A stretch of DNA of 64,000 nt from Meridianimarinicoccus zhengii (GTDB lineage Bacteria; Pseudomonadota; Alphaproteobacteria; Rhodobacterales; Rhodobacteraceae), in NCBI RefSeq assembly GCF_003254465.1, contig NZ_QDFI01000001.1:1-64000 (forward strand), given 5' to 3'. The translations under genes and the position numbers were made by a program. This document shows, in pieces, positions 25,218 through 45,367 of the stretch. Within the stretch, counting starts at the first letter, position 1. Each line of letters opens with the position of its first letter. Under the pieces are notes generated by a model. That model was not told the DNA's origin. It saw only the letters and a list, made by a program, of their open reading frames with translations, and ran no database searches.

Positions 25218-25307
25218 ATGATCCGTGACACGCCCCGGACCAGTCCGGACCACCATCGGCAATTGGTCGGGACCGCGCAGCCCCATGACGGGGCCACGGC
25301 ACCATGA
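25218..25307 (+). CDS. possible 29-residue leader peptide coupled to the kinase
   Basis: ATG 25218 opens MIRDTPRTSPDHHRQLVGTA..., which ends at a TGA (25305-25307) that overlaps the kinase ATG as ATGA. A weak ACGAGAG lies before it. The kinase itself has no Shine-Dalgarno sequence, so translation could depend on termination of this ORF. It has no resemblance to a known peptide; the coupling geometry is the only evidence and a chance ORF is possible. Confidence 0.35.
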   Translation: MIRDTPRTSPDHHRQLVGTAQPHDGATAP

Positions 25308-27937
25308 ACGGGAGACAGACCGCGCCGGACAGGCCCCGATCCTCGACCGTGCAGTCGCTGGTCGCGCTTGGCATCGCGGCGCTTGTCTTCGGGTTCATCG
25401 CCATCATCATCGACGACATCAACGACAAGCTTGAAACGCTCACCACAGCGACGTCGAACCCGCTCGAACGGCAGTTCACGCAGCTCGAGATCGACCATCT
25501 TGTGTTGTTGCGCACGCTGGATACCGCCGAGACCGGCAGCGACCTCGGCGATCTGCGCGATCGCTTCGACGCGTTCCACAGCAACCTCGCACCGCTGCGC
25601 ACCGGGCGAACCTTTGCAGACCTGCGCGCCGATCCGGCATTTTCCACGCCGCTGGACGCTGTATCGCGGACGATCGACGCGGCCATGCCCGTGATGGACG
25701 GGCCGGACGACACGCTCTTGCGCGCCTTGCCGGACCTGCGCACGGACCTGACCGCCAGCACGGACGACATCCGGCAGATCGTGGCGCGCGGCACGGATCA
25801 CGCCGCGGGCCGCATGGATGGCGGGCGTATAAGTGCGGCGGGCACGTTGCGGCGGCTGGGGCTTCTGACGGTGGCGCTCCTGGGGCTGCTTCTGGCGGTC
25901 GTCACCCATATGTGGACGCTCTACCGGACGGCGCGGCAGAACGCGGTCGCGGCGGAACGGAGTGCGGCACGCATGGCCGCCGTGGTCGAGAACGCGTTCG
26001 ACGCCGTGGTGATCACCGATGCCGCCGGCAGCGTCCAGAATTTCAACCACGCGGCGGAGCGCATGTTCGGCTGCGCGCGGGATGAACAGATCGGCCGGCC
26101 CGTCCGCGACACGCTGCTTCCCCACGGGCTGCCCGCGCCGTCCGGTGCCAATGCACAGACGGGCACATCCCAGACCGAAGGCGACACCTTCGTGACGTTG
26201 ACCGCGACCCGCATGACGGGCGAGAGCTTTCCGCTGGAAGCCGCGGTGACGACTTCCCGCGATGCGGATGGCGCGGACATGACCGTGTACTTCCTGCGTG
26301 ACATCACCACGCGCACCCATGCCGAACGTGAATTGCGCGCGGCCCGCGACGCGGCGCTGGCGGGTGAACGGGCCAAGCAACGCCTGCTGACCGTGATGAG
26401 CCATGAGATGCGCACGCCGCTCAACGGTATCCTCGCCACGGTGGAATTGCTTCAGGACACGGCACTGGACGACAAGCAGGCGCGGTATGTTTCGGTGATC
26501 GAGACATCCGGCAAGGTGCTTCTGGGCCATGTCGATGATGTTCTGGACATCTCGAAGATGGATTCGGACAGCGCGGTGGGCGCGGGCCGGCCCATCGATT
26601 TCGGTACGATCGTAAAGGAGGTGGTGGCCGAGCTTCAGACGCAGGCCGCCGCGAACGGTACGACACTCAGTGTGAGTGTGCCGGACGACGCGCGCGTGAT
26701 CGGCGACCCCATTGCCCTGCGCCGGGTGCTGACGAACCTCGTGGGCAACTCGGTGAAGTTCACGCGCGATGGCAGCGTGGACATTTCCGCGGACCGGCTT
26801 GGTGCGGGCGATGTGGTGGAGTTCTGTATCGCGGATACCGGCATCGGCATCGCCCCAGACGACCAGGCGCGCATCTTCGACGATTTCACCACGCTCGACA
26901 CCGGCTATGATCGCGCGCAGTCTGGGACCGGGCTGGGGCTTGGTGTGGTGCAGCGGCTGGTGCGCCAGATGGGCGGCGATATCGGGCTGGAAAGCGAACC
27001 GGGCGAAGGCAGCCTGTTCTGGATCCGGGTTCCCCTGCCGGCGCATGCGGGGACAGGCATCGGGGCGAGCACGTTGCCTTCGGACGGCGCGGCCCGGAAC
27101 GCTCTCGATGTGCTTGTGGTCGAGGACAACGAGATCAACAGGCTGGTCGTGCGGGAAATGCTGCAGGCCGCAGGCCACATGGTCACCGAGGCGCCGGATG
27201 GCCGCGCGGGTGTCGACGCCGCCGAGACGCGGCGCTTCGACCTGATCCTGATGGATATCAGCATGCCCCGCATGGACGGGGTCGAAGCCACGCGGCGCAT
27301 CCGGACCGGCGGCGGGCCGTGCAGCGACACGCCCATCGTGGCGCTGACGGCGAACGCGCTGCTGCACGAGGTGTCGATCTTCCGCGACGCTGGCATGAAC
27401 GAGACGATCACCAAGCCGATCTCGCGCCGATCACTGGACCGCGCGCTGGTGATCGCCGGCGAAATGCGACCGCCGCCGGAGACGGCGCAGCCCGTACCTA
27501 CGGAGGCGGACGCACAGACACGCCCCACATCTCCGGCAAGCCCCGCCCCGCATGCGCCGGACGACCCGGCACAGGACGAGATGGCGCTGGACCGCGCACA
27601 ACTCGACACGCTGCGATCCGAGATCGGGCGCGCGCGTGCGGACGTGCTTCTTGGCCGCTTCATCGACGAAGCGGACCGGGCCATCGCCGATCTGACCACG
27701 GGCCGCCCCGGGGAAACCGACGAAGCACTGGCCGCCGTGCACAAGCTCGCAGGATCCGCGGCGATGTTCGGGGCAGCCCGGCTTTATGCGCGGCTGCGCG
27801 AGTTCGACGGCATGGGCAAGACCGGACACGGTGCCGAAGTGCCCGTGCGCCTGCACGAACTGGGCACGATCTGGGCGGAAACTCGTCCCGTCCTTCGGGC
27901 AGCCGCCGAAGCCCCGCCCAATTCCGCGGCCCCCTGA
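25304..27937 (+). CDS. hybrid sensor histidine kinase with PAS, receiver and HPt domains
   Basis: An 877-residue membrane kinase. Membrane helices lie at about residues 18-39 and 185-206, bounding a periplasmic, mostly helical sensor of about 145 residues of unknown ligand. Then come a PAS domain (about 225-345, VVENAFDAVVITDAAG), HisKA with His367 in SHEMRTPLNG, and HATPase with NLVGNSVKFT, DTGIGI and GTGLGLG. A receiver follows with Asp651 in LMDISMPRMDG, and an HPt domain with His813 in AVHKLAGSAAMFG. All phosphorelay residues are present. The next gene is a LuxR-type regulator, its probable output. Confidence 0.92.
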   Translation: MNGRQTAPDRPRSSTVQSLVALGIAALVFGFIAIIIDDINDKLETLTTATSNPLERQFTQLEIDHLVLLRTLDTAETGSDLGDLRDRFDAFHSNLAPLRTGRTFADLRADPAFSTPLDAVSRTIDAAMPVMDGPDDTLLRALPDLRTDLTASTDDIRQIVARGTDHAAGRMDGGRISAAGTLRRLGLLTVALLGLLLAVVTHMWTLYRTARQNAVAAERSAARMAAVVENAFDAVVITDAAGSVQNFNHAAERMFGCARDEQIGRPVRDTLLPHGLPAPSGANAQTGTSQTEGDTFVTLTATRMTGESFPLEAAVTTSRDADGADMTVYFLRDITTRTHAERELRAARDAALAGERAKQRLLTVMSHEMRTPLNGILATVELLQDTALDDKQARYVSVIETSGKVLLGHVDDVLDISKMDSDSAVGAGRPIDFGTIVKEVVAELQTQAAANGTTLSVSVPDDARVIGDPIALRRVLTNLVGNSVKFTRDGSVDISADRLGAGDVVEFCIADTGIGIAPDDQARIFDDFTTLDTGYDRAQSGTGLGLGVVQRLVRQMGGDIGLESEPGEGSLFWIRVPLPAHAGTGIGASTLPSDGAARNALDVLVVEDNEINRLVVREMLQAAGHMVTEAPDGRAGVDAAETRRFDLILMDISMPRMDGVEATRRIRTGGGPCSDTPIVALTANALLHEVSIFRDAGMNETITKPISRRSLDRALVIAGEMRPPPETAQPVPTEADAQTRPTSPASPAPHAPDDPAQDEMALDRAQLDTLRSEIGRARADVLLGRFIDEADRAIADLTTGRPGETDEALAAVHKLAGSAAMFGAARLYARLREFDGMGKTGHGAEVPVRLHELGTIWAETRPVLRAAAEAPPNSAAP

Positions 27938-34676: not shown

Positions 34677-35506
34677 GCCGCCAGAACACGCGCGCGGGTT
34701 TCGGCATCGACCACCGGCAACTGTCCGAACCAATGGGCGAATCCGGGCGCCGCCTGGTGCAGAAGCATCCCGAGCCCATCGACCGTACCGGCCCCGGCAG
34801 CCCGCGCTGCCTGCAGGAACGGCGTGTCGAGCGGGGCATAGACGACATCGGTCGCCAGCGCGCCCGATGCCATGCCTGCGAGCGGCACATCGAATGGGGG
34901 CTGACCGGACATGCCCAGCGACGTGGTGTTCACCAGCGTCGCGGCGCCGTCGGCAATGGCGCCGGCATCCGCCCAATCCACGACGTGTATCGCCGGGCCG
35001 AACGCGTCGCGCAGGGCGTCGGCGCGCGCCCGCGTCCGGTTGGCGAGCCGGATCTCGGTCGCACCGGCGGCGATCAGGGCATCCAGCACCGCTCGCGCGG
35101 CACCGCCCGCCCCGTAGACGGCCACGGGCCCTGTATCAGCGCGCCAGTCAGGCCGTTCCTGCCGAAGGTTGGCGATGAAGCCTTCACCATCGGTGCAATC
35201 TGCTTCGAACCCGCCATCGGCGCGGAAGGTCAGGGTATTGGCGGCGCCGATCCGTTGCGCCCGTTCCGTTGCGCTGTGAGCGAGGGCCAGCGCCGCCTCC
35301 TTATGGGGGGTGGTGACATTCACGCCAAGGAACCCGGCACGGGGCAGGGCGGCCAGCACCATGGCCAAATCGCCGGGCGCCACATCAAGCGGCACGTAGT
35401 GACCCGGCAACCCGAGCCGCGACAGCCAGAAGCCATGCAGGCGCGGGGACCGGCTGTGGGCGATGGGATGTCCGATGACTCCGGCCAGGGGGATTGGGTG
35501 TGTCAT
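34673..35506 (-). CDS. aroE: shikimate dehydrogenase (NADP+)
   Basis: AroE reduces 3-dehydroshikimate in the aromatic amino acid pathway. The 277-residue protein has the shikimate-binding [11 protein letters not shown], catalytic Lys in [14 protein letters not shown], the nucleotide fold [25 protein letters not shown] and [13 protein letters not shown]. Coupled to maf and coaE by four-base overlaps. Confidence 0.95.
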
Positions 35507-36102
35507 CCGTCGATATCTCCGCGCAACGTGAGGTAGGCCAGCAGTTCGAGAAGCGGCAGCCCGAGGACCGTGAAGTAGTCGCCATCGATCCGAGTGAACA
35601 GGCGCACGCCTTCTTCCTCCACCTTGTAGGCGCCGACGCTGTGGCGGATGCTGTTCCAGTTTCGCGCGACATAACCGTCGAGATAACTGTCAGTCGCATC
35701 GCGCATGGTCAGCCGCACGGTCCCGACATGCCGCCAGAGCGGTTCTCCGTCCCTGTAGATGACAGCCGCCGACAGGAGCCGGTGCTGGCTGCCGCGCAGC
35801 CGTGCCAATTGCGTGCGTGCCTCGTCAGGGCTCTCTGGCTTTGACAGGCATGCGCCATCATGGGCCAGCACCTGATCACAGCCGAGAACGAGCGCGCCAG
35901 GATGACGGGGGCTCACCTTGCGCGCCTTGGCTTCGGCAAGGGTGTCGGCAATGTCGCGCGGCGGAGCGCCCTCGGCCAGCAGTGCCGCCTTGATCGCATC
36001 CTCGTCGATGCGGGCTGGCGACACCTCGACCACAAGTCCGGCATTTTCCAGAAGCTGGCGGCGTATGGCGGACCCAGAGGCAAGGACAAGGTGAGGTGTC
36101 AT
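35503..36102 (-). CDS. maf: Maf-like nucleoside triphosphate pyrophosphatase
   Basis: A 199-residue Maf/YceF-family enzyme, which hydrolyses modified or canonical NTPs to NMP. It starts [19 protein letters not shown], has [10 protein letters not shown] with the metal/catalytic Asp, a Ser/Lys region [25 protein letters not shown] and the late [11 protein letters not shown]. Together these resemble the YceF (m7GTP) type more than YhdE, but I cannot fix the substrate. ATG 36102 gives the usual N-terminus. First gene to the left of the probable origin. Confidence 0.9.
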
Positions 36103-36505
36103 TGGGGAAAACCCTGTGCGCGACTCTGCCGAAAACGATCCCCGACTGTGTGCATGAAATGCCGGGAAACCTCCACACCCGGACCGACGTGGCAACGCCG
36201 CGCTGTCATCCGGGACTCCATCCACAGTGCATGACGGGCCATCGCAGGGTGTGGACGGACCGAAGGCACAACCATCGTCCCCATACTTATCCACAGGCTG
36301 ACATTGAGATATGTGCCGCAAGTACCTGATATTTATTTACTTTAAACCGGCAATGTGTATATGACCACAATCGAAACGGGATAATCCACACTGGGCAAGC
36401 CTGTTGAGAAGGCAATAATTCACACTGTCCAGCGCTCTACTGACTACATCAACTTTTCTTCTCTTTCGTTTTGTTGTTTGAAGATGGCAACCTACCGGAG
36501 CTGCC
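36103..36505. other. probable chromosomal replication origin (oriC)
   Basis: A 403-bp gap without genes, far more AT-rich than the rest of the window. It has one perfect DnaA box, TTATCCACA at 36287-36295, and near-matches TAATCCACA (36382-36390), TAATTCACA (36416-36424), TGTGTATAT (36354-36362), TGTGGACGG (36250-36258) and CCATCCACA (36218-36226). Next to them is an AT-only stretch at 36329-36346 broken by a single C, a candidate unwinding element. Flanking genes (maf-aroE-coaE-dnaQ leftwards; hemJ-rho-mnmE-mnmG-rsmG-parAB rightwards) are those expected beside an alphaproteobacterial origin, and both arms are mostly transcribed away from it. Confidence 0.72.
36287..36295 (+). promoter_or_regulatory. 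consensus DnaA box
   Basis: TTATCCACA, an exact match to the high-affinity DnaA binding sequence, in the middle of the probable origin. Confidence 0.75.
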
Positions 36506-36955
36506 ATGTTCAGTGTCTTGTCTGCTTACTACCCTTGGATCCTGTCGTTTCATGTGATGTCCGTGATTGCGTGGATGGCCGGACTGTTCTACCTGCCTCG
36601 GCTCTTCGTCTACCATACGGAACGGGTGACAGCGGGCAGCGACACGGACGGGCTGTTCCAGACCATGGAACAGAAGTTGTTCCGGTTGATCATGAACCCC
36701 TCTATGATATCGACATATGTGTTTGGCATTCTGCTTGTCCTGATCCCAGGGATCGTGGACTGGGTGTCCGTCTGGCCCTACACGAAGGGCGCGGCGATCG
36801 CCGGGATGACATGGTTCCATCACTGGTGCGGACGGCGGCGAAAGGATTTCGTCGCGCAGAACAACACGCGGACGGGACGCGATTATCGCCTCATGAACGA
36901 GGTACCGACGCTTCTCATGGTCGTCATCGTCATCTCGGTGATCGTAAAGCCTTGA
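36506..36955 (+). CDS. hemJ: protoporphyrinogen IX oxidase HemJ
   Basis: An oxygen-independent membrane enzyme of heme synthesis. The 149-residue protein has about four membrane helices (near 7-27, 65-85, 95-112 and 130-147). The N-terminal His of LSFHVMSVIAWMAGLFYLPRLFVYH, plus HHWCGRRRKDF and FRLMNEVPTLLM-like RLMNEVPTLLM, are family signatures. CCGGAG is 6 bases ahead of the ATG. It is the first gene right of the probable origin, in the place of the Caulobacter first-numbered gene. Confidence 0.9.
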   Translation: MFSVLSAYYPWILSFHVMSVIAWMAGLFYLPRLFVYHTERVTAGSDTDGLFQTMEQKLFRLIMNPSMISTYVFGILLVLIPGIVDWVSVWPYTKGAAIAGMTWFHHWCGRRRKDFVAQNNTRTGRDYRLMNEVPTLLMVVIVISVIVKP

Positions 36956-36974: not shown

Positions 36975-37003
36975 TTGACTTGGGGGCGTAGGGGATGTAT
37001 GCG
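36975..37003 (+). promoter_or_regulatory. promoter of rho
   Basis: TTGACT at 36975-36980, exactly 17-bp spacer, TATGCG at 36998-37003. It implies a 5' leader of about 75 bases before the rho ATG. Confidence 0.5.
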
Positions 37004-37084
37004 CACCCGGCGGGCGTCCGTCCGTGCTTTCCCTGCCAGCCTGACAAGACGCCCCGAATAGCCGGGCGCCCGAGGTCCGTTTCC

Positions 37085-38368
37085 ATGAACATCGCCGTTT
37101 CCCAAGACCGTCTGAACCTGTCCGATCTCAAGGCCAAGAGCCCCAAGGACCTGCTGGCCATGGCCGAGGAGCTTGAGATCGAGAACGCGTCGACGATGCG
37201 CAAGGGCGAGATGATGTTCCAGATCCTGCGCGAGCGCGCGGACGAGGGCTGGGAAATCTCGGGTGATGGCGTGCTCGAGGTGTTGCAGGACGGGTTCGGT
37301 TTCCTGCGGTCGCCCGAAGCGAACTACCTGCCCGGTCCTGACGACATCTATGTGTCGCCCGACATGATCCGCCAATATTCGCTGCGTACTGGTGACACGA
37401 TCGAAGGTGTGATCCAGGCACCGCGGGACAACGAGCGCTATTTTGCCCTCACCAAGGTCACGAAGATCAATTTCGAGGACCCGGAGCGTGCGCGCCACAA
37501 GATCAACTTTGACAACCTGACACCGCTTTATCCCGATGAACGGCTGAAGCTGGAAATCGAAGATCCGACGATCAAGGACAAGACGGCGCGTGTCATCGAC
37601 CTGGTGGCACCGATCGGCAAGGGCCAGCGGTCGCTGATTGTCGCACCGCCCCGCACCGGCAAGACCGTGATCCTGCAAAACGTAGCGGCGTCCATCGAAC
37701 GCAACCATCCGGAATGCTACCTGATCGTGTTGCTGATCGACGAACGCCCCGAAGAAGTGACCGACATGCAGCGGTCGGTGAAGGGGGAGGTGGTATCCTC
37801 TACCTTCGACGAACCGGCCTCGCGCCATGTCGCCGTGGCCGAGATGGTGATCGAAAAGGCCAAGCGGCTGGTGGAGCACAAGCGCGACGTGGTCATCCTG
37901 CTCGACAGCATCACGCGACTGGGGCGGGCCTACAACACGGTGGTGCCATCTTCGGGTAAGGTCCTGACGGGCGGTGTGGATGCCAATGCACTGCAACGGC
38001 CCAAGCGTTTCTTCGGCGCTGCCCGGAATATCGAGGAAGGCGGATCTCTGACCATCATCGCCACGGCCTTGATCGAAACCGGGAGCCGCATGGACGAAGT
38101 TATCTTCGAAGAGTTCAAGGGTACCGGCAACTCGGAACTCGTGCTGGATCGAAAGATCGCGGACAAGCGCGTCTTCCCGGCCATCGATATCATGAAGTCG
38201 GGTACGCGGAAGGAAGACCTGCTGATCGACAGGGCGAACCTGCAAAAGACCTTCATCCTGCGGCGCATCCTGAACCCGATGGGCACGACCGACGCTGTCG
38301 AATTCCTGCTGTCGAAGCTGAAGCAGACCAAGACGAACTCTGAGTTCTTCGAGTCCATGAATACATGA
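37085..38368 (+). CDS. rho: transcription termination factor Rho
   Basis: A 427-residue hexameric RNA helicase. The N-terminal helical bundle has [29 protein letters not shown]; the primary RNA-binding fold has [16 protein letters not shown]; Walker A is [15 protein letters not shown]; Walker B is [16 protein letters not shown]; the Q- and R-loops follow ([35 protein letters not shown]). ATG 37085 gives the conserved start; GAGG is 10 bases upstream. No Asn/Gly-rich insert is present. Followed after 19 bp by mnmE. Confidence 0.97.
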
Positions 38369-39668: not shown

Positions 39669-41540
39669 GTGTTTCACGTGAAACATGACAACTATGACGT
39701 CCTTGTGGTTGGAGGCGGCCACGCCGGGTGCGAAGCCGCCCATGTTGCGGCCCGCCTTGGGGCTGCGGTTGCGCTTGTTACCCTTGATGTCGACAAGATC
39801 GGGGTGATGTCGTGCAATCCAGCGATCGGGGGGCTTGGCAAAGGCCATCTCGTGCGAGAGATTGATGCGTTCGACGGCGTGATGGGGCGCGTCGCCGACC
39901 GTGCGGGTATTCAGTTTCGCCTATTGAACCGGCGCAAAGGTCCAGCAGTCCAGGGCCCGCGGGCCCAAAGCGACCGCCGCATCTATCGTGAGTCCATGCA
40001 GGCCGAGCTGCGCGCGCGACCAGAGCTCGAGATAATAACCGGCGAAGTTGCTGACGTTTTGATGCAAGACGGCGAGGTTCGCGGCGTCACTCTTGCCGAT
40101 GACCGCAATTTGCGTGCTTGGTCAGTGGTCGTTACGACAGGGACGTTCCTTGGCGGAATAATCCATATCGGGTCAGAGTCCTTCGCTGCCGGTCGTATGG
40201 GTGAAAAGCCGGCCAACGCGCTTGCGGCAAGGCTGCGGTCGATGGGGTTGCCCATGGGCCGGCTCAAAACCGGGACACCGCCGCGACTTGACGGACGCAG
40301 CATCGATTGGGCTGCTTTGGAGCAACAACCCGGCGACCCGGCGCCGACGTTTTTTTCGTTCATGACGCGCGAAGTGCAGGCCCCGCAGATTGCCTGCGGG
40401 ATCACGCACACAAACACTGAAACACACCGGATCATTCAGGAAAATCTCGAGAAGTCAGCAATGTACGGTGGACGTATCGATGGCGTCGGTCCGCGATACT
40501 GTCCGTCGATCGAGGACAAAGTCGTGCGCTTCTCGGACAAGGACAGCCACCAAGTGTTCCTTGAGCCCGAGGGGATCGATGACCACACCGTGTACCCAAA
40601 CGGGATTTCCACGTCGCTGCCGGCCGACGTGCAGTTGCGTTATGTTCGGTCAATGCGAGGGCTCGAGGCCGCAACAATTCTTCAACCTGGCTACGCCATC
40701 GAGTACGATTATGTCGACCCGCGTGCGCTTTCGCTATCGCTGGAGCTCAAGTCCTGTCCCGGGCTTTTCCTCGCGGGGCAGATCAATGGAACAACAGGCT
40801 ATGAGGAGGCCGCTGCCCAAGGGCTCGTCGCCGGGATCAACGCTGTTCGGCGCGCGCGCAGCGAAAGCGCCGTCCATTTCAGCCGTAGCGACAGCTATAT
40901 CGGCGTGATGGTCGACGACCTGACCTCGCGCGGCGTGGCGGAGCCATATAGGATGTTTACCTCGCGCGCCGAGTTCCGGCTTTCGCTTCGCGCAGATAAT
41001 GCCGATCAGCGACTTACCCCGATGGCGATCACGCTTGGATGTGTGGGCGAGCCTCGCCGCGCGCAATTCGAGGAAAAGATCAATCTTCTATCACATAGTA
41101 AGGAGGCTCTTGATCGCGAGACATGGCTGCCGCGCGAGATCCTCGGCGCGGGTATAGCCGTGGCGGCCGATGGCGGGCGGAGAAGCAGTCTCGACATCCT
41201 GTCGTTCCCAAAGGCAAGTTTCGAGCACCTCATCCGATTGAATCCAGCGCATGCGGCGATTCCTGATGAGATCCAGGATCAGCTCTGGCGAGATGCGCTG
41301 TACGCGAAGTATCTCGACCGGCAAGAGCGGGATGTTGCCCTGTTGCGGCGTGAAGAGGCCATGGCGATCCCGGTCGATCTCGATTTTGGCAGGATTTCCG
41401 GGCTATCGAATGAACTCAGACAGAAGCTCGAAACGAGGCGGCCGGAAACGCTGGCGCAAGCCGGGCGGATCGAGGGAATGACGCCGGCGGCGCTTGCGCT
41501 GCTGCTGTCCCATCTGCGTCCGTTGCGAAAGCATGCCTGA
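39669..41540 (+). CDS. mnmG: tRNA uridine-5-carboxymethylaminomethyl(34) synthesis enzyme MnmG
   Basis: FAD enzyme partner of MnmE (about 623 residues). The FAD fold is [22 protein letters not shown]; the signatures [16 protein letters not shown] and SNPAIGG-like [14 protein letters not shown] are present, as is [20 protein letters not shown], and the C-terminal helical domain follows. The 5' end lies in a parS palindrome. GTG 39669 encodes [15 protein letters not shown] 39678 (MKHDNYDVL) is better spaced from GAGGAG at 39664-39669, and may be the true start. Overlaps rsmG by 8 bp. Confidence 0.95.
39670..39685. other. parS centromere site 1
   Basis: TGTTTCACGTGAAACA, a perfect 16-bp ParB-binding palindrome, covering the start of mnmG and encoding FHVKH. 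Confidence 0.92.
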
Positions 41541-42144
41541 GTCGGGCGATCTCGATGTTTCACGTGAAACACTGGAGCGGCTTGAAGTCTATGCGAACCT
41601 GCTGCGAAAATGGACCCGCAAGATCAACCTCATCGCGCCAGGTACAGTCGACGATTTGTGGGGCAGGCATATCCGTGACTCGGCTCAGGTTTTCGTGGTG
41701 GCTCATGCATCCCGCGGTCTCTGGGCCGATATCGGTTCTGGTGGCGGACTTCCGGGCGTTGTTGCCGCAATTATTGCCGCCGAAAGGGCACCCGAGCTCG
41801 AATTTGTCTGTGTCGAAAGCGATCAGCGAAAGGCGGTGTTCCTTGGGATTGTTTCACGTGAAACAGGCGTGCCGTTCCGTGTCGTCGCCGATCGGATAGA
41901 ACGCATTCCGCCCCTGGGCGCGGCTGTTCTAAGCGCGCGGGCGCTGGCGCCTCTGGATATATTGATGGGCTTTGCGGCGCGGCATCTTGCAGCCGACGGT
42001 GTCGGGATGTTCCAGAAAGGGGCGCAACACGAAAAAGAACGGTCAGACGCCGAAAAGAACTGGCAGTTCAGGTGCGAGACCTTTACCAGTTGTACTGATC
42101 CCGATGCCGTCATCTACAAGGTTGGAGCGCCTCGCCGTGTCTGA
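41533..42144 (+). CDS. rsmG: 16S rRNA (guanine(527)-N7)-methyltransferase RsmG
   Basis: A 203-residue SAM-dependent methyltransferase (GidB). It has [36 protein letters not shown], the SAM loop [11 protein letters not shown] and [11 protein letters not shown], then [11 protein letters not shown]. Two parS palindromes lie inside the gene and impose the pentapeptide VSRET twice (near residues 9 and 107). ATG 41533 overlaps the end of mnmG; the parA GTG start overlaps its stop by 8 bp. Confidence 0.94.
41556..41571. other. parS centromere site 2
   Basis: TGTTTCACGTGAAACA, perfect copy inside the 5' part of rsmG. Confidence 0.92.
41850..41865. other. parS centromere site 3
   Basis: TGTTTCACGTGAAACA, perfect copy in the middle of rsmG, 294 bp after site 2 and in the same reading phase. 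Confidence 0.92.
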
Positions 42145-42934
42145 ACTGGCCACCCGAATTATCGCTGTCGCCAACCAGAAGGGCGGCGTGGGTAAAACCA
42201 CGACGGCGATCAATCTCGCCTCTGCTCTCGAAAAGCGCGGCCTGCGATGCCTGATCGTCGACCTGGACCCGCAGGGCAATGCATCGACAGGAATTGGCAT
42301 CAATATCGAAGATCGAATCAACACGACCTATGATCTTCTGATCGATCAGATGCCACTTTCTGAGGTTGTGCGCCCGACCAACGTACCTGGAATCGTCATC
42401 GCACCTGCGACGACCGATCTGAGTTCCGCCGATATCGAGTTGGTGGCCAACGAACGGCGGAGCTTCCTACTGCGCGATATCCTGCGTGGTCCGGACCTTG
42501 TGGCACTAGATGTGGATTACGTACTGATCGATTGTCCGCCGTCGCTGAACCTTCTGACCGTCAACGCAATGGTTGCCGCCGATTCGATCCTGATCCCGCT
42601 GCAAAGCGAGTTCTTCGCGCTTGAAGGGCTGTCGCAACTGATGCTCACGATTCGCGAGGTTCGTCAGACCGCAAACCCGGCCTTGCGCATCGAAGGTGTC
42701 CTTCTGACGATGCACGATGCCCGCAACCGGTTGGCGCAACAGGTGGAGGCGGATGCGCGGGACACGCTCGGGGATCTCGTGTTCCAGACAATCGTTCCGC
42801 GCAACGTGCGTGTCAGCGAAGCTCCGTCTTACGCGGTTCCGGTTATCGATTACGATCCGGCGTCCAAGGGGAGCGCAGCCTACACCGCGCTGGCCGCTGA
42901 AATTCTGGCGCGAAACGCGCCCGCCATGGCCTGA
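42137..42934 (+). CDS. parA: chromosome partitioning ATPase ParA (Soj-like)
   Basis: A 265-residue deviant Walker ATPase that forms the gradient pulling ParB-parS. It begins RIIAVANQKGGVGKTTTAINLA with the signature Lys, then LIVDLDPQGNASTGIGI, VLIDCPPSLNLLTVNA and PLQSEFFALEGLSQL. It has no N-terminal helix-turn-helix, as in chromosomal ParA. The start is a GTG ([11 protein letters not shown]) inside the end of rsmG. parB follows after 18 bp. Confidence 0.95.
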   Translation: MSELATRIIAVANQKGGVGKTTTAINLASALEKRGLRCLIVDLDPQGNASTGIGINIEDRINTTYDLLIDQMPLSEVVRPTNVPGIVIAPATTDLSSADIELVANERRSFLLRDILRGPDLVALDVDYVLIDCPPSLNLLTVNAMVAADSILIPLQSEFFALEGLSQLMLTIREVRQTANPALRIEGVLLTMHDARNRLAQQVEADARDTLGDLVFQTIVPRNVRVSEAPSYAVPVIDYDPASKGSAAYTALAAEILARNAPAMA

Positions 42935-42952: not shown

Positions 42953-43849
42953 ATGACAAAAGAACGGCGCGGACTTGGGCGAGGGCTTTCCGCCCTGATG
43001 GCCGATGTTGCGGTGGCTGAGCCGACACAGGGTGCGCGTCCGCAAGGGGAGCGCCGAATCCCGGTCGAGCAGATCGAACCGAATCCCGACCAGCCGCGCC
43101 GGCATTTCAACGACGCGCAGCTTGCGGACCTTGCCAATTCGATCCGTGAAAAGGGCGTGATCCAGCCATTGATCGTGCGGCCTGCGCCGGGCCAGGTAGA
43201 CCGCTTCCAGATCGTTGCGGGGGAACGCCGGTGGCGGGCGGCGCAGATGGCCCAGCAACATGATCTACCGGTTCTCGTTCGGGATTTAGACGATACCGAG
43301 GTTCTCGAGGTTGCCATCATCGAGAACATCCAGCGCGCGGATCTGAACCCCGTGGAAGAGGCTGCAGGCTATCGGCAATTGATGGACCGTTTCGGTCATA
43401 CGCAGGAGCGACTCGCCGAGGCATTGGGCAAGAGCCGCAGCCACATTGCAAACCTGCTGCGGTTGCTCAGCCTGCCTGCGGAAGTGCAGGCCTATCTTGC
43501 CGATGGCCGTCTCAGCGCGGGGCATGCGCGGGCGTTGATCCCGACGGACGATCCGCTGAAGCTGGCGCGAATCGTTGTCGACAAGGGGCTGTCCGTCCGC
43601 GAGACCGAAAAGCTGGCCAAGGTCGGGGATTCCAAGCCGCGCCCTTCGCGGACCGAACGGTCATCGGAAAAGGATGCCGACACCCGGGCGCTGGAACAGG
43701 ATCTGAGCGCAAACCTGGGCATGAAGGTGGTGGTCAACCACGACGAAAGCAAAGAAAGCGGAACGATTTCAATAAATTACAAGTCGCTCGACCAGCTTGA
43801 CGAACTGTGCCGCATGCTCAGCCTCAGCCCGGCGGGCGCGTCCATATGA
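42953..43849 (+). CDS. parB: chromosome partitioning CTPase/DNA-binding protein ParB
   Basis: A 298-residue centromere-binding protein. It starts RRGLGRGLSALM, then has the CTP-binding N domain with IEPNPDQPRRHFND, GERRWRAAQMA (box with the key Arg residues) and ENIQRADLNPVEEA. The parS-reading helix-turn-helix is about residues 140-165 (TQERLAEALGKSRSHIANLLRLL), and a C-terminal dimer domain follows. Three matching parS sites lie 1.1 to 3.3 kb upstream. Its last 26 bp overlap the convergent DUF454 gene. Confidence 0.96.
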   Translation: MTKERRGLGRGLSALMADVAVAEPTQGARPQGERRIPVEQIEPNPDQPRRHFNDAQLADLANSIREKGVIQPLIVRPAPGQVDRFQIVAGERRWRAAQMAQQHDLPVLVRDLDDTEVLEVAIIENIQRADLNPVEEAAGYRQLMDRFGHTQERLAEALGKSRSHIANLLRLLSLPAEVQAYLADGRLSAGHARALIPTDDPLKLARIVVDKGLSVRETEKLAKVGDSKPRPSRTERSSEKDADTRALEQDLSANLGMKVVVNHDESKESGTISINYKSLDQLDELCRMLSLSPAGASI

Positions 43850-44179: not shown

Positions 44180-45367
44180 TCAGCCCGCCAGCAGATCGCG
44201 GAGGACGGCGTTGAGCACGCGACGCCCCGCCATGGTTGCCGACAGGCTTGTCTCGGTCACACGTAGAAGACCGAGCCCGCTCAGATGCTGCAGGGTCGTC
44301 GCCTCGGGCTCCAGGCCCAGCCGCTTCAGCCGCGCGCGGTCGGTGCCTTCGGACAGGCGCAGGCTCATCATCAGATATTCTGCGGCCTGATCGGCCAAGC
44401 TGAGCGGTTCGGTCAGGCTATCGCCGTTCCCGGCTTCGGATTGTGCGAGCCATTGTCCTGGCATGCGGTGCGTTTCGGTTGCCAGACGACCGTGTGGGCC
44501 GGTGATCCGCCCATGGGCGCCGGGACCGATCCCGACATAATCGCCATACCGCCAATAAATCAGATTGTGCCGGCTTTCCGCACCGGGCGCCGCGTGGTTG
44601 GACACTTCATAGGCTGGCATGCCATGACTTTCGCAGATTTCCTGCGTGGCATCGTACATGTCGGCCGCGATGTCGTCATCGGGCAGGTCCCGCAGGCCGC
44701 CCCGCGCGTGGCGATCACCGAAAGCCGTCCCCGGCTCGATCGTCAACTGGTAGAGCGACAGGTGATCCACGGCCAGCGCCAGCGCGCGGCGCAGCTCCGC
44801 CTGCCAGTCGACTAGGGTCTGTCCCTGACGCGCGTAGATCAGATCGAAGCTCACCCGGTCGAAAATGTTGCGGGCCACGTCAAAGGCGGCCATCGCCTCC
44901 TCCGCGCTGTGCAGCCGACCGAGCCGGCGCAGATCCGCGTCGTTCAGCGCCTGCACACCCATCGACACCCGGTTCACGCCCGCATCGCGAAAGGCGCGGA
45001 ATTTCCCCGCCTCGACGGATGTCGGGTTGGCTTCCAGCGTCACCTCCATGTCGTTGGCGGCGGGCCAAAGGCTGCGGGCTTCCAAAAGGATCGCATCGAC
45101 CGTCGACGGATCCATCAGGCTTGGCGTGCCGCCGCCGAAGAACACGGTGTTCAGCACCCGATCAGGTGTCCGTGCCGCGTTCCGGCGCAATTCGGACACA
45201 AGCGCCCTAGCCCAGCGTCCATGGTCCACATGCGCGGTCACATGGCTGTTGAAATCGCAATAAGGGCATTTGGCCGCGCAGAAGGGCCAGTGCACATACA
45301 GCCCGAAGCCGCCCGCCTGCCAGTCAGCGTCCGTCAAGCAGCCCGGCCTTGAGCTTGGCGAAGGCAT
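44180..45367 (-). CDS. hemW: radical SAM family heme chaperone HemW
   Basis: A 395-residue radical-SAM protein that binds heme and passes it to apoproteins. The cluster motif is [16 protein letters not shown] (CxxxCxxC plus the extra HemW-type Phe/Asn), followed by [10 protein letters not shown] and MGVQALND, and a C-terminal HemN-like domain. Though related to HemN, it lacks features of coproporphyrinogen dehydrogenase. ATG 45367 overlaps rdgB by 44 bp; a TTG ten codons later would reduce this overlap. Confidence 0.92.

Follow-up and report, generated by a model that had tools for sequence, protein, structure and literature searches.

A predicted chromosome origin between maf and hemJ in a draft Rhodobacteraceae genome, with a candidate unwinding block beside hemJ

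Introduction

Does the short gap between maf and hemJ hold the replication origin (oriC) of the main chromosome, and, if so, where in it would the two strands come apart? In 101 Rhodobacteraceae strains, oriC was pinpointed by Ori-Finder together with skew, local GC content and the position of parAB; in eight it could not be (PMC6699656). Here the genome is a 4.6-Mb draft in 220 contigs, and the window, the whole stretch of DNA that was analysed, comprises bases 1-64000 of contig C1 (156,190 bp). An earlier note on this DNA had placed a probable chromosome origin between the two genes. We are highly confident that the 403-bp maf/hemJ interval at 36103..36505 (no strand assigned) is the predicted oriC of the main chromosome. 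The conserved layout, the clustering of DnaA boxes, the position of parS and the skew minima in four relatives all support that placement.

Results

The gap and its DnaA boxes

As the earlier note described, a 403-bp gap separates the divergent genes maf (35503..36102, minus strand; PF02545 match) and hemJ (UPF0093; 36506..36955, plus strand; PF03653 match); rho follows at 36995..38368 (plus strand). The status of the gap as gene-free hinges on the start codons chosen, as the maf frame extends upstream as far as 36321 and offers a TTG, and hemJ could likewise begin at a TTG, at 36478. We adopted the ATGs at which the proteins of relatives begin. Elsewhere in the window, about 8 kb to the left, 25304-27937 (plus strand) encodes a hybrid sensor kinase whose domains are PAS, HisKA, HATPase, receiver and Hpt.

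Eight DnaA boxes with at most two mismatches to TTATCCACA lie in the gap. One is exact, at 36287, as had been noted earlier, and seven others, where at least five with one or two mismatches had been claimed, comprise a one-mismatch box at 36382 and six two-mismatch boxes at 36103, 36149, 36218, 36354, 36402 and 36416. The two boxes with at most one mismatch compare with 0.08 in dinucleotide shuffles, a number equalled by 1 of 200 shuffles. The weighted box score of 403-bp windows over the gap, 12-13, is the maximum of the 64 kb (mean 0.56). The 403-bp windows richest in AT overlap the gap and hemJ, and the most AT-rich 18-mer in the 64 kb is indeed the patch at 36329-36346 (17/18 A/T). Across the genome as a whole the single motif shows no enrichment, either as exact boxes (5 in 4.6 Mb vs 19 for a reversed control) or with one mismatch (214 vs 287). 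Thus, the argument for an origin rests on clustering and on conservation in relatives.

Conservation of layout and box clusters

The closest named relatives by HemJ are Rhodobacteraceae. Among the best 80 of 592 confirmed relatives, which are the closest by HemJ, the order maf(-), gap, hemJ(+) occurs in all 77 assessable loci; the other three start too near a contig end. Gap length is 364-455 bp in 76 of the 77 and 1211 bp in the last (L047), which is seemingly the same locus as one in G021 with DUF299 inside the interval. A second set of 41 genomes, the source genome included, was searched as well; 36 have a HemJ match and 30 yielded loci. Same-family genomes with an absent or weak HemJ match (G004, G008, G015 and G017) were left out. 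In 18 of 21 same-family loci maf is divergent from hemJ, with a space of 1.2 kb containing DUF299 in two of these (L008 and L019). The loci that depart from this layout are G014 and two with hemE before hemJ, G010 and G023. No maf was found within 1.5 kb of hemJ in any of nine loci from other families.

For counts we used gaps of 340-470 bp (92, or 88 after removal of four near-duplicates), which excludes the longer intervals L008, L019 and L047. Boxes with at most one mismatch number 239 across 87 of the 88 gaps, compared with 10.5 in shuffles, and exact boxes number 43 in 37 gaps, compared with 0.1. GANTC (158 vs 160.0 in shuffles) and GATC (147 vs 160.1) are not enriched in the 88 gaps.

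GC skew and parS

In two contigs from the same genus, the cumulative GC-skew minimum falls almost at the gap: at 176720 in G003:C26 (217 kb), 54 bp from the gap start at 176774, and at 44734 in G002:C9 (115 kb), about 210 bp from the gap start near 44945. For whole-chromosome skew, three closed chromosomes (G009, G019 and G041) were each represented by twenty samples of 20 kb. The best split of the sampled skew into two halves takes in the gap in G009 and G019; in G041 it lies at 0.03-0.07 of the chromosome and the gap at 0.015 (contrast 0.0296 vs 0.0258). In G009 the skew is still slightly negative in the first three samples to the right of the gap. Twenty samples per chromosome are unable to separate the gap from dnaA, so a contiguous 400 kb was analysed in two of these genomes. 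In G009 the skew minimum is 1.8 kb from the gap but 83 kb from dnaA; for G019 the two distances are 18 and 234 kb. In both stretches the gap is the top box cluster, with 6 (G009) and 5 (G019) sites per 400 bp where about 0.09 are expected.

The suggestion that the skew minimum should mark the origin holds in four relatives, at 54 bp to 18 kb from the gap, and roughly in a fifth (G041), but not on the contig of the source genome itself, which has no skew step at the gap (left arm +0.012, right arm +0.013). That contig is C-rich from 60000 to 90000 and G-rich from 90 kb, a change that could stem from rearrangement in this region, perhaps an inversion close to the origin.

Three mismatch-free parS sites (TGTTTCACGTGAAACA; no strand assigned) lie at 39670..39685, 41556..41571 and 41850..41865. 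They are the only such sites in the source genome, all 3-5 kb from the gap (reversed control, 0), and a single one-mismatch site occurs elsewhere, on contig C164. Beside them, and near the gap, are parA (41972..42934, plus strand; coordinates of the ORF, inside which the true start may lie) and parB (42953..43849, plus strand). In seven other genomes parS lies within about 17 kb of the gap, apart from two one-mismatch sites, at 27 kb in G009 and 218 kb in G019.

Internal organization of the gap

A family alignment was built with MAFFT, a program prone to placing similar stretches over one another. Read from maf to hemJ, it shows a box in reverse orientation next to maf, two boxes forming an inverted pair, a central TTATCCACA, an IHF-like site and an A/T stretch; these are followed by more reversed boxes, a tandem TAATCCACA and TATCCAC, and then CTAC-AAC-ATC-ATC-ATC-TTTTCTTT. 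In the source genome, the site beside maf is a two-mismatch box at 36103..36111 (minus strand; family consensus GTGGATAAC), and the inverted pair of the consensus (TTnTCCACnGTGGAnAA) is represented by a two-mismatch site at 36218..36226 (plus strand). The exact box occupies 36287..36295 (plus strand), and in all 6 gaps from the genus it precedes hemJ by 219-224 bp. Nearer hemJ are a one-mismatch TAATCCACA at 36382..36390 (plus strand) and a two-mismatch site at a family-conserved position, 36402..36410 (minus strand). The tandem pair consists of TAATTCACA at 36416..36424 (plus strand; two mismatches from the box, family consensus TAATCCACA) and a second, weaker box at 36426..36434 (plus strand; family consensus TATCCACnG). 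Both members of the pair are degenerate in the source genome.

Consensus strings were used for IHF and CtrA sites; that for CtrA is printed in PMC1914354. An IHF-like site (YAAN4TTGATW, one mismatch) lies at 36319..36331 on the minus strand, and its column and orientation are conserved in the alignment. The exact motif occurs 15 times in the 88 gaps, compared with 2.7 in shuffles; 14 of the 15 share an orientation and start at the 36319 column, and the remaining one lies at 36331 on the opposite strand. Of the other gaps, 25 differ from the motif at the 36319 column by one mismatch and 49 by two or more. CtrA sites (TTAAN7TTAA) are absent from the source gap even at one mismatch. The 88 gaps hold 9 exact CtrA sites (1.4 in shuffles) and 53 with one mismatch (25.1 in shuffles), spread over six places, with three of them at 36318. 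Given these varied positions in relatives and the lack of sites in the source gap, CtrA was rejected as a fixed feature.

The AT-rich patch at 36329..36346 (no strand assigned), a possible second melting point, is as extreme in composition as had been claimed, but it adjoins the conserved IHF-like site and begins inside it. The least stable 36-mer of the source gap is 36329-36364. In the family set of 88, the centre of the least stable 36-mer falls in 36440-36480 in 49 gaps and in 36320-36360 in 39, and family mean stability is lowest in 36440-36480. That region includes a T-rich stretch at 36456..36480 (no strand assigned), a candidate unwinding element according to the alignment and the stability profile. 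From the sequence evidence, the repeat/T-rich block near hemJ (36416-36480) is the best-conserved candidate for the site of unwinding.

Trio-like repeats beside hemJ

Besides being given as 3'-[G/A]AT-5', the DnaA trio has a wider form with A in the third place. The commonest form of the canonical trio is 3'-GAT-5', and the published search accepted 3'-NAN-5' (PMC8287927). In the family consensus, the first of the tandem boxes ends 13 bp before the first repeat, placing a DnaA box within 16 bp. Top-strand C then recurs at every third base, at 36438, 36441, 36444, 36447, 36450 and 36453, in 74, 72, 47, 83, 81 and 73 of the 88 gaps, respectively, and the third place of the triplets is mostly A or T. 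The source genome carries CTA-CAT-CAA-CTT at 36444..36455 (top strand), a DnaA-trio-like repeat in which the middle base is not restricted to T.

Four tandem C[AT][AT] units occur in 33 of 88 gap tails, compared with 0.4 in shuffles, and CA[AT]x3 occurs in 29 of 88, compared with 0.7. Runs of C[ACT][AT], defined as four or more units whose final base may be A, C or T, are present in 45 of the 88 gaps, where shuffles give 4.8, and in 7 of 10 other loci, where they give 0.55; the other strand has such runs in 6 and 2, respectively; these repeat-count enrichments overstate the surprise, because the patterns were picked after the alignment had been viewed. The other loci are 10 of 12, with G028 and G034 excluded for lack of a simple layout. 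In the best runs, a middle T on the top strand, which is an adenine on the other, is found in 68 of 217 triplets in the gaps and in 8 of 38 elsewhere. Strict canonical trios, CT[AT]x3, are not enriched (2 of 88 vs 0.7 in shuffles). A looser canonical form, [CT]T[AT]x3, is found in 44 of 88 gap tails (13.2 in shuffles), starting at 36436-36453 in 6 and further on in the T-rich stretch in 43; the source gap has none. A frame shift of one base puts the middle A back in many triplets. The repeats beside the boxes thus appear to fit the first and third places of the trio while mostly lacking its canonical middle adenine, and the block looks slightly unlike the textbook form.

DnaA residues

In B. 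subtilis DnaA, Asn187 contacts the middle adenine of the trio, and Arg202 and Glu228 contact the guanine (PMC10721633). When aligned to that protein (8btg), DnaA of the source genome has Tyr187, Lys202 and Glu228. Among alphaproteobacterial DnaA sequences, which share ancestry (18 of 20 sampled, with G012 and G036 left out), residue 187 is Tyr in 16 and Phe in 2, and Lys202 and Glu228 are kept by position in all 18. As all 18 have Tyr or Phe, we claim no link between trio form and residue 187 inside the Rhodobacteraceae. We also observed that dnaA occurs twice in G006 (contigs C56 and C87) with equal score, perhaps an assembly duplicate. Contig C1 of G019 has 14 further, weaker Bac_DnaA-domain matches above the cut-off, scattered round the chromosome (E 1.6e-9 to 5.9e-9), which we would guess to be ATP-binding helpers of an insertion sequence.

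One reading of these paired differences, which we put forward tentatively and consider rather doubtful, is that alphaproteobacterial origins may use a relaxed trio, 3'-GN[A/T]-5', in which the guanine is kept and the middle adenine is not, matching Tyr/Phe187 and Lys202/Glu228. In the Rhodobacteraceae its form is mostly 3'-GT[A/T]-5'. The enrichment of loose canonical trios lowered our confidence in this reading somewhat further. If true, the relaxed trio would be the deviant form, lacking the middle adenine, whose existence is suspected in PMC8287927. In the parts of the literature consulted there is nothing on trio-like repeats in Rhodobacteraceae, and the supplementary tables of PMC8287927 (2070 species) may list them. 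The combination of trio-like repeats without the middle adenine and a DnaA with Tyr/Phe187 is possibly new; we regard it as a lead, not a finding. A paired difference in DNA and protein at the unwinding step is testable by a strand-separation assay.

History of the flanks

Seven outgroups (G025, G031, G033, G036, G038, G039 and G040) show DUF299(-), the gap and hemE(+) in that order, and then hemJ where it was found. Three others (G029, G032 and G037) have hemE by hemJ and no DUF299 match, and the genes recovered from G030 and G034 sit on separate contigs. Within the family, G010 has both hemE and DUF299, G007 and G021 have DUF299 without hemE, and G023 has hemE with no DUF299 match. DUF299 matches are absent from 22 of 25 same-family genomes, some of them incomplete. 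The source genome has hemE on contig C159 and no DUF299 match.

The earlier note was right that hemE is gone from the origin, but the place it left is on the right (hemJ) side, not the left; similarly, the left border was correctly described as rearranged, in that DUF299 is missing from the maf side, but both borders have changed. The simplest reading is that in the source lineage hemE departed first, DUF299 was lost later and the origin stayed. Outside the family, G028 has DUF299 and hemJ about 1.4 kb apart (C15:140283-142834) but carries hemE on a different contig, so hemE may have left a second time, independently. In G015 (C3:2394977-2395992) the hemE match is in two adjacent pieces, indicating a frameshift or sequence error.

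Discussion

Proposed mechanism and alternatives

Initiation in the gap might proceed as follows. DnaA would bind the box cluster, and IHF, by analogy with E. coli oriC, would bend the middle of the gap at 36319-36331, so that the central box comes close to those on the right. DnaA would spread from the tandem boxes at 36416-36434 onto one strand of the repeat/T-rich block at 36438-36480, which would melt and allow the helicase to be loaded, much as in the Bacillus basal unwinding system. ParB bound to the three parS sites, which lie 3-5 kb further right, would then separate the new origins.

A quite different view is that replication starts at dnaA, as in many bacteria, and that the maf-hemJ gap is only a divergent promoter regulated by DnaA. 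The gap does part divergent genes and must hold their promoters, and dnaA of the source genome is on a different contig (C204). Such a promoter is nevertheless very improbable as the whole explanation: the skew minimum is near the gap but 83 kb (G009) and 234 kb (G019) from dnaA, no box cluster ranks above the gap in the 400-kb stretches, which include dnaA, and the outgroups have box-rich DNA and a similar repeat block before hemE instead of hemJ. The repeat block alone might be a leader or promoter of hemJ rather than an origin element, as an unbroken run, in the 45 of 88 gaps having one, starts a median of 66 bp before that gene. However, a like run precedes hemE in 7 of the 8 loci in which that gene still adjoins the gap, so the block follows the origin and not the gene, and the early-branching hemJ loci G007 and G021 have no unbroken run; we consider this explanation improbable.

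Less easily set aside, although we still judge it unlikely, is an origin in this gap at which melting begins at the AT patch, 36329-36364, and not in the block near hemJ. This segment is the least stable 36-mer of the source gap, and the corresponding position is the least stable in 39 of the 88 gaps. Yet the position near hemJ is the least stable in 49 and has the lowest family mean, the repeat/T-rich block there adjoins the tandem boxes and carries a conserved three-base period, and the AT patch starts inside the IHF-like site. We therefore retain the repeat/T-rich block as the preferred candidate for unwinding.

Comparison with known systems

A position beside maf is described as conserved for oriC in Rhodobacteraceae on the basis of DoriC, and the gap lies next to maf just as the predicted oriC of Ketogulonicigenium vulgare Hbe602 does (PMC4793288). 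As an oriC beside maf had already been predicted for the family, the location here is not new. What the analysis adds is a 403-bp fragment to which the origin of a draft genome is narrowed, and an account of flanks unlike those of Caulobacter: hemE moved, DUF299 was lost and the origin stayed.

The genes neighbouring Cori in Caulobacter include maf, rho and parAB, as do those beside the source gap. Like Cori of Caulobacter crescentus, the gap combines DnaA boxes with an IHF-like site and an AT-rich region, but Cori lies between hemE and COG1806 (DUF299), both of which are gone from the source gap, and it has five CtrA sites where the source gap has none (PMC1914354). The IHF site of Cori is matched in the source gap by sequence only, with one mismatch.

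The block near hemJ resembles the basal unwinding system of Bacillus subtilis in having a box pair, a short spacer, three-base repeats and an A/T-rich stretch on one strand (PMC8287927, PMC10721633). Compared with the B. subtilis trios, the first G and the third A/T are kept, whereas the middle base on the bottom strand is mostly T, not A; at residue 187, B. subtilis DnaA has Asn and the DnaA of the source genome has Tyr.
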